Shown: positions 1-5,156, counted from the first letter of the stretch. The stretch: 36,707 nucleotides of DNA from Propionibacteriaceae bacterium (GCA_031272825.1 JAISTE010000010.1:1-36707), one strand, 5' to 3'. Numbers and translations: made by a program. Notes: generated by a model from the sequence alone, not told the origin.

Positions 1-487
1 AGTCCAGGCCGGGGAAGGATACCTGCCGGGGTTCGTAGAAGGAGCTGGCCGAGTCGTCGCCGCGGCCGCATACCTCTTGGTACTTATCGCACCCCCAGGT
101 CCACACGGTACCGTCGTCAGCCAGGGCCGCCGCCGCGTGGCCTGGTTCATCGGTAAACCCGCGGTGGGAGGTGGTATCTGCCGTCACAACCTTGCGATCG
201 CCGGGCAGGCACAACTGGGTGGCCGGGTCGTCGGAAGGCACCGAAGCTTGCCCGTTTCCCGCCATTCCGTGTTCCCGGTAACCCCAGATCCACAGGCAGC
301 CCTCCTGATCCTTGGCCATGGCTGTGCCCGGGGCGAGGGTGTCGAGCGGGTCGAGGTCGAGGGTAGCGTCGAAGGCGATGGCCACCCGGCCAGCTTCGGT
401 ATCGGTAAAGCTGGCCAGCGACATCGGAACGCAGGCGATCGCGGCCAGGGTCAGCAGGCCGACGACCAGTGACACTCCCCTTCTCAC
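1..487 (-). CDS. Secreted RCC1-repeat protein, partial (3' end off the window), cassette copy 1
   Basis: Not in ORF track. Reverse-strand GTG start at 487 overlaps the signal peptidase stop (484-486) by 4 bp. Translation VRRGVSLVVGLLTLAAIACVPMSLASFTDTEAGRVAIAFDATLDLDPLDTLAPGTAMAKDQEGCLWIWGYREHGMAGNG...GTVWTWGCDKYQEVCGRG matches the protein at 2175-3704. Confidence 0.88.
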   Translation of the reverse strand, partial: MRRGVSLVVGLLTLAAIACVPMSLASFTDTEAGRVAIAFDATLDLDPLDTLAPGTAMAKDQEGCLWIWGYREHGMAGNGQASVPSDDPATQLCLPGDRKVVTADTTSHRGFTDEPGHAAAALADDGTVWTWGCDKYQEVCGRGDDSASSFYEPRQVSFPGLD

Positions 488-1119
488 GCCTGGGTTGCTC
501 CCTCCAATTTCGCTTCACGTGTGCGTGCGTTTTCAGTCTCGGTGCGCACCCCCGAGACGTCGGTTCCGGCCTGTTTCATGGATTCGACCAGCCGCTTGGC
601 CGAGGCGCGGGTCAGCCCTTTCACTACCGAGCCGTCCGGCATGACGACGGAAACCCGCGGCCCTCCCGAAAAGGAGAAGACGATGATGGCGAGCAGGATC
701 AAGCCTGCGATCACCAGGTTGTTGCGCACCCAAACGCACACGTAGCCGAGCACCGGCACCGAGCCCAGGTACTGCCCCACCTCGGAGACGAGGTAGGGGG
801 CCGGGTCGTCTTGGCCGTTGGCGTCGCCCCTCAAGGTGAGCTGGGTGAGGCCGTCGGGGCCCTCGGAACTCGCCACCACGCGGTGGGTGACGTACTCGCG
901 GCTCTCCTTTTGCAAGGTGACGACGTCCCCGACCTTGGCCTGGCTGGCCGGGATGGGCCGGTCGAAGGCCAGTGCCCCGGTGTGGATCTGCGGCTCCATC
1001 GAGCCCGAGGCGACGATCACCGGGCGCAGGCCGAAGGCCAGCATGAGCCCGAAGGCGATTATGGATATCGCTCCCAGCGCACAGAGCACTGAGAGCGATA
1101 CGCGGCGGGCAATCGTCAC
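484..1119 (-). CDS. Signal peptidase I, ER/SipW-type, cassette copy 1
   Basis: N-terminal TM, catalytic VASGSMEP box, YVTHRVV (Ser-His type), GDANGQDDPAPY, second TM, C-terminal tail. Overlaps the next upstream gene by 4 bp. Confidence 0.92.
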   Translation of the reverse strand: MTIARRVSLSVLCALGAISIIAFGLMLAFGLRPVIVASGSMEPQIHTGALAFDRPIPASQAKVGDVVTLQKESREYVTHRVVASSEGPDGLTQLTLRGDANGQDDPAPYLVSEVGQYLGSVPVLGYVCVWVRNNLVIAGLILLAIIVFSFSGGPRVSVVMPDGSVVKGLTRASAKRLVESMKQAGTDVSGVRTETENARTREAKLEGATQA

Positions 1120-1811
1120 GGAAGCACCGATTCGCCGTCGATGTGGGCCATCAGATAGGCCTTGGTGTCGAGCAGGCTGTTGACGCTGGCCGAATCTTCC
1201 AGCTTCACCTTGATCGAGACGGTAGCGATGTCGCCGCCGGCGAGCTTCGTGCCGATCTCCAGGCCCTTACCCGAGTTCATCGCGTTGATGTCGTCGATCT
1301 TCTGAGCGGTAGCGTCGTCACCGGCATCCGAGGTGACGTCCAGGCGCAGGGCATCCCACAGGTCGGCCGAGCCGTTGGCACCGAGGGTGGCGGCATCGTC
1401 GTCGAACTTGAGGTAGAGCTTGGTCGGGTTGTTGGACGTAGAGGCGTTCTTGATCTGGAAGTCCGGGATGTCGATGTAGTCGCCGAGCTTGAGCAGTTGC
1501 TCGCCGCTGGCCAGATCGATGGGCAGAGCGGCGGAGGGATCGTCGCGGTCGGCGCTGCCGTTAGCGGTGTCCTTCCAGCCGCTGTTGCCGGACTGGATCT
1601 GCAGGTTATAGGAGCCGACCGCGAGGCCCGCGTCCTTGTCGTTGCCGGCCAGGCGCGCAAACTCGGAATCGGTGAAGGCCGCGAGGGTGACCGTCCCAGC
1701 CAGTGCCAAAGCCATGAACCCGGTTGCGAGCAGGCCCGCCGACCGGAACTTGGAACGTTCTTCGATGATGATGGGTTCTTCGGCGTCAAAGCGCTTTCCC
1801 AACTGCTTCAT
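1116..1811 (-). CDS. TasA/camelysin-like exported protein with SipW-dependent-type signal peptide, cassette copy 1
   Basis: Hydrophobic segment followed by LAAFTDSEFARLAGNDKDAGLAVGSYNLQIQS; DIPDFQIKNASTSNNPTKLYLKF resembles TasA/camelysin-type proteins. RBS ggagg upstream of the ATG. Confidence 0.82.
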   Translation of the reverse strand: MKQLGKRFDAEEPIIIEERSKFRSAGLLATGFMALALAGTVTLAAFTDSEFARLAGNDKDAGLAVGSYNLQIQSGNSGWKDTANGSADRDDPSAALPIDLASGEQLLKLGDYIDIPDFQIKNASTSNNPTKLYLKFDDDAATLGANGSADLWDALRLDVTSDAGDDATAQKIDDINAMNSGKGLEIGTKLAGGDIATVSIKVKLEDSASVNSLLDTKAYLMAHIDGESVLP

Positions 1812-1857
1812 ACCTAGCCTCCAAAGCAGATTGTTGACGATAGAAATACGTCCGCGA

Positions 1858-1879
1858 CCTTACCGCCGGGTAAAAGTGC
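1858..1879 (-). promoter_or_regulatory. Putative operator/promoter motif CCTTACCGCCGGGTAAAAGTGC upstream of cassette copy 1
   Basis: TTACC-GCCG-GGTAA inverted repeat 47 bp from the start codon; near-identical motif at 5135-5156 before copy 2. Confidence 0.55.
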
Positions 1880-1926
1880 AACAAAGGATAATCGCTAGAT
1901 AGTTGCATTTAGAGAGCTAGTGAGCA

Positions 1927-1949
1927 CACTTCGGTGGTACACCGAAGTG
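1927..1949. terminator. Perfect 10-bp stem, 3-nt loop hairpin (CACTTCGGTG-GTA-CACCGAAGTG)
   Basis: Read directly from sequence; lies between cassette copies. Could be terminator or regulatory; no strong U-tract. Confidence 0.5.
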
Positions 1950-1962
1950 CCTGCTCCGCCCC

Positions 1963-2040
1963 TTCGTCATGCTGCACACAAACACCCATTCGTCATCCTG
2001 CACACAAACACCCATTCGTCATCCTGCACACAAACACCCA
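1963..2040. repeat. Tandem array, 3 x 26 bp (ttcgtcatcctgcacacaaacaccca)
   Basis: Units start at 1963, 1989, 2015; the array runs directly into a full palindromic element at 2041. Confidence 0.95.
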
Positions 2041-2115
2041 TTCGTCATCCTGCGCGTAGTCGCAGGATCTTGCCGAACTGTATAGAGCTCCTGCGACGAC
2101 GCGCAGGATGACGAA
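2041..2115. repeat. Head-to-head pair of dispersed palindromic elements
   Basis: ttCGTCATCCTGCGCGTAGTCGCAGGATCT (2041-2070) and the inverted copy aGCTCCTGCGACGACGCGCAGGATGACGAA ending about 2115. Confidence 0.92.
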
Positions 2116-2174
2116 GAACCCAACGAGGGATTACGGAAAACCCACAGCCATTTCAACTGCCCATAACCCTGTGC

Positions 2175-3704
2175 TTATCGGCTCCAGGTGTCCAAGAGAG
2201 TAGCGGGCTGGCCAACCGAGGTATTGGTGGTGCTGGTCTTGAGTAGGTAGTCACGCACGATGGAATACGGGTTGCCGGAGGGAATCTGCTCTCTGCCTCC
2301 GCCGACGGTGAAGAGCAACCCATCTGTGCGCTTGACCATTGCCGAATCTCCGAAGCCGACAATTTTGGCGATCTTGCCTTTCTGCCAGGCGGGGTAGGTG
2401 GTACCGCCATCGATGGCGAAGGCCAGGTTTGCAACGTTTGGCAGCTCATACGGAGCGCCGTCCTCACGGGGGAATTTGTCGGTGTGTTTGCGTTCGCCGT
2501 AGAAATAGGCCTGACCCGCCGAATCCCAATAGAAGATGAATTCGGTTCCAGTAGCCAAACCGACAATCGGATTTGCGGCAGTTATCAGGGCAGGCTTTCC
2601 GCCAGTCTTGCTAATTCCTGCCCCAGAGGCACCATGGCTTCCGTATCCCCAGCTCAGCAGCGAGCCGTTCTTCAGCCTAATCGAGGAGCCATAGTACTGG
2701 CCTGTCATATCCTGAAAAGTTCCGCCATCTTGAGCAGAACCCATCCGCACTCCCAAAGTGGCGTTGTCATCGGTATTCGCGCCCAGCGTCGAATCCCCGT
2801 CTTTGTAATCGAGGTAATTGGCCAAGGTGCCAGTCAGCGCAGAGGGAGTGGACTTGACCACAGTGTCCGCGATGGAAGTATCACCGGAAGGTCGCCCGTA
2901 GCTGCCAGCGTTGCTACCCCAAAACACCACCGCCGCTTTATTGCTCGAAAGGGTGTCGTTGCTGGCCGCGTCTTTGCCTGAACGCCAGCCGGCTGCAGCA
3001 ATCGCCCATCCGCAGAAGATGGAAGTCCCGAATGAATGCACTTGCGTCAACATGCGCACGGGACTCGTGAGGTTGGTACCTTGAGTTCCGTTACCCAAGA
3101 CACCGAAGGTGGCCTCACCCCAGGTGAAGAGCTGCCCTCCGCTGCTCAGTGCGGCGAAAGCATTGTTCAGAGCCTTCAGATCGACGATCTTTTCCCCGCT
3201 TGCCAGGTTGGGGAACGTTACCTGCTGCGGCGAGTAGTACTGCGTATCTCCTGCGCTATTGTCCTTATCGGCGGCACCAACGCCGCACAGGCGCAGGTAA
3301 TAGCAGCCCCAAGTCCAGACGGTTCCATCATCGGCAAGAGCAGCTGCCCCGTACGTCAGATCGTAGTTTTGGCCGTACTGGGAGGTCGCGTCGGCGGTCA
3401 CAATCTTGCGCGAATCCGGAAGGCACACGCGGCTAGCCGGATCCTCAGAGGCGACCGTCTCTACCCCGACGCCCGCCATGCCATATTTGCGTAAACCCCA
3501 AATCCACAGACATCCAAACTGATCTAAAGCCATGGCCGTGCCCATGGCCATGGTGTCGAGGGGTTCTAGATCCAGCAAAGGATCATCGAACGCGATAGCC
3601 ATCTTCCCAGCCTCTGTATCGGTAAAGCTGGCGGCGGTGATCGGCGCGGAGGCGATCAGGGCCAGGGCCAGCAGGCCCGAGAGCAGGGAGAGCGCGCGTT
3701 TCAC
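2175..3704 (-). CDS. Secreted RCC1-repeat (beta-propeller-like) protein, cassette copy 2
   Basis: SipW-type signal (ITAASFTDTEAGKMAIAFD) then RCC1-like repeats: GCLWIWGLRKYGMAGVG, GTVWTWGCYYLRLCGVG, GQLFTWGEATFGVLGNG, GSLLSWGYGSHGASGAG. Confidence 0.87.
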   Translation of the reverse strand: MKRALSLLSGLLALALIASAPITAASFTDTEAGKMAIAFDDPLLDLEPLDTMAMGTAMALDQFGCLWIWGLRKYGMAGVGVETVASEDPASRVCLPDSRKIVTADATSQYGQNYDLTYGAAALADDGTVWTWGCYYLRLCGVGAADKDNSAGDTQYYSPQQVTFPNLASGEKIVDLKALNNAFAALSSGGQLFTWGEATFGVLGNGTQGTNLTSPVRMLTQVHSFGTSIFCGWAIAAAGWRSGKDAASNDTLSSNKAAVVFWGSNAGSYGRPSGDTSIADTVVKSTPSALTGTLANYLDYKDGDSTLGANTDDNATLGVRMGSAQDGGTFQDMTGQYYGSSIRLKNGSLLSWGYGSHGASGAGISKTGGKPALITAANPIVGLATGTEFIFYWDSAGQAYFYGERKHTDKFPREDGAPYELPNVANLAFAIDGGTTYPAWQKGKIAKIVGFGDSAMVKRTDGLLFTVGGGREQIPSGNPYSIVRDYLLKTSTTNTSVGQPATLLDTWSR

Positions 3705-4393
3705 CTTGATACCGCCTCCAGGATGGGTTCGTGGCTGGGCTCAGGTTCGGGGCCCTCCCCAGTCTCAGGGCGGGGTTCCGTAACCGGCTCGGGTTGCTCT
3801 GGCTCGGAGCCTTCCCTATCCCCCGCGCTTGCCCCGCCCGAGGTGGCTTTCACGGATTCGACCAGCCGCTTTGCCGACGTCCGGGTCAGGCCCTTCACTA
3901 CCGATCCGTCGGGCATGACGACGGAAACCCGCGGCCCACCCGAGAAGGAAAAGGCCGCCAGGGCCAGGAACAGGATCGCGGCGATCACCCAGTTGTTGCG
4001 TACCCACATGGCCGCATAGCCCAGCCACGGGATCGAGCCCAAGTGCTTCCCAACCTCGGAAACCAGGTAGGGCGTGGGGTCGTTTTGGCCGTTGGCGTCG
4101 CCTTTCAAGGTGAGCTGAGTGAGCCCCTCAGGGCCCTCGGCGACCGCCACGACCCGGTGGGTGACGTAGTCACCGCCGGTTCTCTTCACCGTGACGATGT
4201 CGCCGACGGCCACCTGGTTCGCGGGAACCGCGCGGTCGAAGGCCAGTGCCCCGGTGGGTATGGCCGGTTCCATGGAGCCGGAGGCCACCATGATCGGGCG
4301 GATGCCGAAGGCCAGCATGATCCCGAACGCGATTAGGGATATCGCTCCCAGCACGCAGATAACTGAAAGCGATATCCGCCGGGCGATTCTCAC
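3701..4393 (-). CDS. Signal peptidase I, ER/SipW-type, cassette copy 2
   Basis: VASGSMEP, YVTHRVV, GDANGQNDPTPYLVSEVG, FSFSGGPRVSVVMPDGSVVKGLTR; 4-bp overlaps on both sides; acidic/Pro-rich C-tail. Confidence 0.92.
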   Translation of the reverse strand: MRIARRISLSVICVLGAISLIAFGIMLAFGIRPIMVASGSMEPAIPTGALAFDRAVPANQVAVGDIVTVKRTGGDYVTHRVVAVAEGPEGLTQLTLKGDANGQNDPTPYLVSEVGKHLGSIPWLGYAAMWVRNNWVIAAILFLALAAFSFSGGPRVSVVMPDGSVVKGLTRTSAKRLVESVKATSGGASAGDREGSEPEQPEPVTEPRPETGEGPEPEPSHEPILEAVSR

Positions 4394-5085
4394 GGCAGAA
4401 CCGAGATGCCGTCAACGTGGGCCAGCAGGTAGGCCTTCGTATCGAGCAGGTTGTTCACATCCGCCGAATCTTCCAGCTTCACCTTGAGCGAGACCTTGGC
4501 GATGCCTCCGCCGGCGAGCTTCGTCCCGATCTTTAGGCCCTTGTTGGCGTTGAGCGCGTTGATGTTCGCAATGGTCTCGGCCGTCACGTTGTCGCCAGCA
4601 TCGGAAGTGACGTCCAGCAGTAGGGCATCCCACAGGTCTTGAGAACCCGTGCCGCCGACCGCAGCGGCATCGTCGTCGAACTTCAGATACAGCTCGGTCG
4701 GGTTGTTGGACGTCGAGGCGTTCTTGATCTCGAAATCAGGGATTGTGATGTACTCGCCGACCTTGAGTAGCTGCTCGCCGCTGGCCAGGTCGATCGGGAA
4801 CGTCGGCTTCTTGTCGCGGTCAGGATTGCCGTCTGCTGAGGTGTCCTTCCAACCGCCCGAACCGGATTGAATCTGCAGGTTATAGGAGCCGACCGCCAGG
4901 CCTGCCTTGTCGTCGTTGCCCGCCACCCTGGCGAACTCGGAATCTGTGAATGCTGCGAGGGAAACCGTCCCGGCTAGCGCCAATGCCATGAATCCGGCGG
5001 CGAACATGCCCGCCGTGCGGAACTTAGAACGTTCCTCGATGATGATGGGTTCGGATGCGCCGAACCGCCTTCCTATTTGCTTCAT
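4390..5085 (-). CDS. TasA/camelysin-like exported protein with SipW-dependent-type signal peptide, cassette copy 2
   Basis: Same length (231 aa) and closely similar to the 1116-1811 product throughout; LAAFTDSEFARVAGND motif. Confidence 0.82.
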   Translation of the reverse strand: MKQIGRRFGASEPIIIEERSKFRTAGMFAAGFMALALAGTVSLAAFTDSEFARVAGNDDKAGLAVGSYNLQIQSGSGGWKDTSADGNPDRDKKPTFPIDLASGEQLLKVGEYITIPDFEIKNASTSNNPTELYLKFDDDAAAVGGTGSQDLWDALLLDVTSDAGDNVTAETIANINALNANKGLKIGTKLAGGGIAKVSLKVKLEDSADVNNLLDTKAYLLAHVDGISVLP

Positions 5086-5134: not shown

Positions 5135-5156
5135 CCTTACCGTCGAGTAAAAATAC
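5135..5156 (-). promoter_or_regulatory. Putative operator/promoter motif CCTTACCGTCGAGTAAAAATAC upstream of cassette copy 2
   Basis: Matches the motif at 1858-1879 with few substitutions and similar distance (50 bp) to the ATG. Confidence 0.55.

Follow-up and report, generated by a model that had tools for sequence, protein, structure and literature searches.

Recurring actinobacterial cassettes combine SipW-type signal peptidases with TasA-like proteins and RCC1 beta-propellers in a candidate surface system

Findings

In a 36,707-nucleotide stretch of DNA from a Propionibacteriaceae bacterium (GCA_031272825.1, JAISTE010000010.1:1-36707; hereafter the window) we identify two tandem cassettes, each coding for a TasA-like secreted protein, a SipW-type signal peptidase and a secreted RCC1 propeller. 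The pairing of these genes recurs in the same genome, in its genus and in several other families and is not a local oddity; to judge from the sequences it represents an undescribed surface system. SipW, TasA-like clients and RCC1 propellers are each already known, and it is their combination that appears to be new: a literature search of open papers found none that mentions SipW and RCC1 together. To our knowledge, almost all that is known of SipW systems comes from the biofilm fibres of Bacillus.

The tandem cassettes

Positions 1-5085 of the window hold six ORFs, all on the minus strand, in which the order TasA-like protein, SipW-type peptidase, RCC1 protein occurs twice (Table 1). A 4-bp GTGA stop/start overlap is found at all four junctions within the copies, bearing out the preliminary description of two adjacent copies with the same gene order and 4-bp overlaps. 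The copies share 78.6% identity in DNA (1,245 aligned columns), and in protein 78% for the TasA-like member, 66% for SipW and 62% for the visible part of RCC1. Whole-genome matches to TTTTTACYCGRCGGTAAGG lie only upstream of the two tandem copies, and since it is found nowhere else in the genome the duplicated unit takes in the promoter region. A single operator common to all the cassettes discussed below is ruled out, the motif being present at the two tandem copies only.

Table 1. Features of the tandem cassettes (window coordinates)
Feature	Coordinates	Strand	Remarks
TasA-like secreted protein, copy 1	4390..5085	-	231 aa; signal ...SLAAFTD/SEFARV; TIGR04088 14.9 bits, slightly below cut-off; alignments
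SipW-type (ER/archaeal-type) signal peptidase, copy 1	3701..4393	-	Ser40/His79; TIGR02228 75.7 bits against cut-off 51.85
Secreted RCC1 propeller, copy 1	2175..3704	-	509 aa; signal ...ITAASFTD/TEAGKM; PF00415 48.7 bits; model
TasA-like secreted protein, copy 2	1116..1811	-	231 aa; 78% identity with copy 1
SipW-type signal peptidase, copy 2	484..1119	-	TIGR02228 73.0 bits; 66% identity with copy 1
Secreted RCC1 propeller, copy 2	1..487	-	N-terminal 162 aa; truncated by contig end; probable continuation C48:1-1039
Promoter-proximal motif TTTTTACTCGACGGTAAGG (TTAC-N6-GTAA), before copy 1	5135..5153	-	2 genome-wide matches, one per copy
Promoter-proximal motif CTTTTACCCGGCGGTAAGG (TTACC-N4-GGTAA), before copy 2	1858..1876	-	Same motif as before copy 1

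Window base 1 is the end of its contig (C150) and falls inside the second RCC1 gene. The start of another contig, C48, codes for the missing C-terminal 345 residues (57% identity with copy 1); next come the gene of an unrelated secreted protein and an argininosuccinate-synthase-like gene. Comparison of the two contig ends found no sequence overlap between them; C48 probably continues the copy-2 RCC1 gene. Because C48 runs from the RCC1 C-terminus into unrelated genes, it gives the probable end of the array, and the number of copies, which had been proposed to be counted by extending the contig leftward, is likely two. The three-gene tandem duplication looks specific to this genome, the genus g34 having a tandem RCC1 pair of its own, and taken alone it is a minor local feature. 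Direct repeats of 26 bp (three in all) and an inverted repeat of 30 bp lie in the segment between the copies (window 1959-2115); the palindrome found there, CGTCATCCYGCGCGYAGTCGCRGGAT, has 281 copies in the genome (at up to 2 mismatches) against 0 for the reversed control and is an interspersed REP-like element.

The peptidase and its two kinds of clients

Both window peptidases exceed the curated cut-off of TIGR02228, the archaeal/ER type of signal peptidase I that includes SipW (73.0 and 75.7 versus 51.85 bits), with serine and histidine in the expected boxes. The catalytic serine (SGSM) and histidine (VTHR, replacing Lys) do not vary among the six SipW paralogs of the genome. They differ from Bacillus SipW in that the Bacillus-specific model NF046067 gives them 54-58 bits, far below its 190-bit cut-off.

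The RCC1 proteins of both copies score above the PF00415 cut-off (copy 1, 48.7 versus 21.7 bits). A single-sequence RCC1 scan of genome contigs gave no matches; an alignment of closer relatives succeeded. The predicted model of copy 1 (pTM 0.79) has UVR8, HERC1/2 and RCC1 as its nearest solved folds, at E about 1e-18, and superposes on UVR8 with E 6e-19 and a TM of about 0.77 (by target length). It thus resembles the RCC1-like propellers (RCC1, HERC2, UVR8 and the secreted bacterial BLIP-II) in its PF00415 repeats, but its identity to solved propellers is 12-18%, with no sign of a nucleotide-exchange function, and unlike them it bears a SipW-type signal and belongs to a TasA-like operon. A hydrophobic segment ending in A-x-[FYWH]-x-D is present in all 23 compact RCC1 proteins of this family with an intact N-terminus, and the motif is found in none of the 8 RCC1 controls unlinked to SipW.

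The TasA-like proteins are more divergent. Against the model of the SipW-dependent signal (TIGR04088, cut-off 19 bits) the two window proteins score 18.2 and 14.9 bits; in a search of the genome copy 2 reached 20.3 bits and the N-terminus of the RCC1 protein of contig C135 22.7 bits, both above 19, the coordinates of the latter match falling within the C135 RCC1 gene. The Pfam TasA/camelysin family matched none of the 11 TasA-like members, and searching solved structures with a profile of the TasA-like alignment returned nothing significant. The predicted model is beta-rich and of low confidence (pLDDT 62). In Foldseek, chains of the CanA cannula subunit of Pyrodictium make up three of its top six matches; these are weak (E 5e-3 to 2.5e-2, TM 0.28-0.43), too little to claim homology, and TasA is absent from the top 50 fold matches listed. 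Going by this model, the resemblance to known fibre subunits is weak. Since there is no Pfam family, a near-threshold signal and a low-confidence model, the name TasA-like reflects signal, operon context and rough fold and not family membership.

The preliminary description had proposed a Ser-His peptidase with two clients, and the analysis agrees with it: the peptidase is of the ER type, and the unrelated TasA-like and RCC1 proteins share one signal motif. Their co-secretion by SipW is well supported, and we infer that the neighboring SipW cleaves both kinds of client.

Recurrence in the genome, the genus and beyond

Five of the six SipW genes of this genome adjoin RCC1 genes: the two window copies and three more, on contigs C147, C135 and C167. 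The chance of four independent RCC1 places lying less than 6 kb from a SipW gene in this genome is about 4e-7. The three additional cassettes are larger, with three small clients bearing [FYLV][TS]D ends and one protein with an ordinary Sec signal, which has an LPFTG tail in C147 and C135; SipW and RCC1 come last, in either order. The sixth SipW (contig C163:23515-24201) has no RCC1 nearby, and toxin-antitoxin-like genes lie upstream of it. A further RCC1 fragment is found at the start of contig C97.

Among 30 genomes of the genus, 22 carry SipW; an RCC1 protein with a SipW-type signal is present in 16 of these 22, and lies beside SipW in 14. In 12 genus genomes this partner, adjoining SipW and TasA-like genes, is a protein of about 1000 aa (some truncated by contig ends) whose signal is of the ATLASFVD type and which has about 16 RCC1 repeats; these were detected with Pfam and a repeat-level profile, and in the four full-length members scanned Pfam finds 13-14 RCC1 repeats at E <1e-110. 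The genome G020 has a seven-gene cassette in which the SipW and RCC1 genes overlap, and in G016 and G012 (loci L068 and L072) RCC1 adjoins TasA-like genes with SipW on a different contig. A reverse-transcriptase-like gene, recognized by eye only, adjoins the G016 RCC1 cassette (L068:10804-12012), from which the adjoining SipW has been lost. Elsewhere in G016 (L045:8930-10915) two SipW-like peptidases, one with a proline/charged N-terminal extension of about 250 aa, stand side by side with no obvious client genes nearby.

Within the wider family the cassette is complete in G176; RCC1 genes form a tandem pair in G208 and G210, in G208 with TasA-like and SipW genes near an RCC1 gene; and G212 combines RCC1 with three TasA-like genes. 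Cassettes were found in the Propionibacteriaceae genera g28 and g34, Cellulomonadaceae, Promicromonosporaceae, Rothia and a Bifidobacteriaceae MAG. Named carriers are the Propionibacteriaceae MAGs Md513_bin89 and bin21, Cellulomonas biazotea, C. hominis, C. triticagri, Cellulomonas sp. ACRRI, Cellulosimicrobium cellulans, Rothia santali, a Micrococcales MAG with two cassettes and the Bifidobacteriaceae MAG; in Cellulosimicrobium and Cellulomonas sp. ACRRI another SipW is adjoined by a further RCC1 protein that differs from the first. A publication about the termite Mastotermes darwiniensis (PMC12483993) mentions Md513, which points to the termite gut as the source.

Other genes accompany several of these cassettes. 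SpaA-type sortase pilin genes lie directly downstream of that of C. hominis (L112:10010-13560). Many subtype II and III cassettes (as defined below; L042, L043, L072, L098, L105, L110 and L186) have beside them a protein of about 825-868 aa, a candidate dedicated regulator whose L105 version combines a LuxR-type (GerE) C-terminus with an AAA match below threshold. Anchor-like proteins that lack a SipW-type motif but combine L[AP]xTG with a membrane segment and a basic tail are encoded at L013:5865-6551, L014:2067-2633, L098:9230-9820, L107:6210-6827, L110:3833-4450 and L112:6252-6851.

A ranking of the 80 closest RCC1 matches from named genomes has only Actinobacteria in its first 11 positions, and 8 of these 11 have SipW within 7 kb, a linkage rate that is biased upward outside the genus because those loci were found via RCC1; none of the 69 more distant matches has SipW within that distance. 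No such bias affects the genus and class samples, which were selected on SipW. At 40 SipW loci sampled across the class there is no RCC1 gene within about 6 kb. RCC1 is thus rejected as a general partner of actinobacterial SipW and, being absent at these loci, is dispensable for SipW systems in general; its pairing with SipW is a specialization of certain lineages. Inconsistent linkage in relatives had been named as one observation that would count against the proposed system; linkage held, beside SipW in the 14 genus genomes and in several families. Of the two elements that had been singled out as unusual, the duplication keeps that standing, whereas the RCC1 partner loses it, given three more cassettes here and the 14 genus genomes.

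Phylogenetic trees of SipW and RCC1 resolve the same three subtypes: I, with the window, g34 and the Bifidobacteriaceae MAG; II, with C147, C135, C167 and G176; and III, with G020, G012 and G016 together with Cellulomonadaceae and Promicromonosporaceae. Two members, L186 and the Rothia SipW, have no settled placement. In the RCC1 tree a branch with 100% support separates the 22 SipW-type RCC1s from 8 others. A single clade of all RCC1-linked SipWs was not recovered, and is not clearly rejected (p-AU 0.055) in a test that counted 12 SipW loci with the ~1000-aa RCC1 proteins as RCC1-free. Two residues after the motif Asp, subtype I clients have a glutamate in 7 of 7 RCC1s and 8 of 8 small clients, as against 0 of 14 and 0 of 38 in subtypes II and III, an agreement that is in effect one event because it involves one clade.

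These data bear on the explanation that chance or hitch-hiking made operon neighbors of functionally unrelated genes, the FTD motif being a generic signal-peptide end. While A-x-A-like ends are common in secreted proteins and RCC1 is missing from the class-wide SipW loci, this would have to accommodate the improbable co-location in this genome alone, the recurrence of the pairing in other families, the restriction of the motif to linked RCC1s and the matching subtypes of the SipW and RCC1 trees; we strongly disfavor it and regard it as highly improbable.

A possible SipW-built surface structure

The closest known parallel is the tapA-sipW-tasA operon of Bacillus subtilis (and sipW-calY of B. 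cereus), in which a dedicated ER-type SipW peptidase is likewise co-transcribed with secreted beta-rich clients from overlapping genes, the signals end in A-A-[FYW]-x-D, and one major candidate fibre subunit accompanies one minor, unrelated client. The present cassettes differ in that an RCC1 propeller takes the place of TapA as minor client, the TasA-like proteins have diverged beyond what Pfam recognizes, the larger cassettes include an L[AP]xTG-tailed protein and 3-5 small clients, and the window unit is tandemly duplicated. In B. subtilis SipW removes the signals of TasA and TapA, mature TasA begins at residue 28, and the TasA N-terminus serves as donor strand of the next subunit, the first one coming from TapA (PMC9674648, PMC10151520).

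On balance we favor, with some reserve, the reading that each copy is an operon for a SipW-built surface structure in which the propeller would most likely be a minor subunit at the end of a TasA-like fibre, where it would bind a ligand. The dedicated peptidase would cut the signals of two unrelated clients, the beta-rich TasA-like protein as candidate filament subunit and the RCC1 beta-propeller, both of which have A-x-[F/Y/W]-x-D in the cleavage region. The TasA-like proteins may then form the shaft, which in the larger cassettes might be attached to the wall by the L[AP]xTG-tailed proteins; the propeller, with a free N-terminal segment and no TasA-like acceptor fold, would sit at an end of the filament and bind a ligand, whether as a tip or adhesin or as a TapA-like starter with a propeller head. 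Linkage, co-duplication, the common signal motif and the matching peptidase and propeller subtypes support a surface structure. A role of RCC1 as the anchor is disfavored because the larger cassettes have a separate anchor candidate, the protein with the ordinary Sec signal and L[AP]xTG-like tail. Against this reading speak the missing Pfam TasA/camelysin match and weak fold matches of the TasA-like proteins, the absence of RCC1 from the 40 class-wide SipW loci, and the separate RCC1 and SipW loci of G016 and G012.

A bolder version, in which the SipW-cleaved propeller N-terminus inserts into the first TasA-like subunit, making the propeller the obligate, exchangeable tip of Gram-positive donor-strand fibres, is attractive but seems unlikely to us. 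If true, it would liken these tips to those of the adhesin-tipped pili of Gram-negative bacteria, and exchangeability would be in keeping with compact single propellers in three subtypes and, in other genomes of the genus, large proteins with about 16 repeats. A specially conserved post-cleavage N-terminus finds no support: this segment is no better conserved than the propeller (36-42% versus 44-52%), which leaves a donor-strand role unsupported.

The propeller might instead be a SipW client outside any filament, a released or wall-associated binding or inhibitor protein that shares the operon only for the peptidase. BLIP-II, a secreted RCC1-like propeller that inhibits beta-lactamases, is among the solved relatives of the large genus proteins, ligand binding is usual for propellers, and the RCC1 proteins have no LPxTG or C-terminal membrane segment of their own. 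This idea, to which we give roughly the modest credence of the donor-strand version, sits poorly with RCC1 and TasA-like genes having been kept together across three subtypes and several families, and with RCC1 still adjoining TasA-like genes where SipW lies elsewhere, as at L068 and L072.

A little less probable again is that the TasA-like proteins are non-polymerizing matrix or surface proteins and that the cassette makes a coat or biofilm matrix with the propellers as main component. The TasA-like proteins have no recognized TasA/camelysin domain and a low-confidence model, a cassette can have up to five small clients, and propeller partners can be very large, with about 16 repeats, all of which would suit a coat; fibre-forming CanA is, however, among the best (if weak) TasA-like fold matches, and the Bacillus SipW-TasA pairing yields fibres (PMC9674648).

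Conclusions

The cassettes described here are a conserved, recurring actinobacterial version of the SipW system whose second client is a beta-propeller, a ligand-binding fold. If, as in the terminal-subunit reading that we favor, the propeller is the functional end of the fibre, the system would be a Gram-positive counterpart to tip adhesins and would offer a handle on the attachment of termite-gut and of cellulose-degrading actinobacteria.
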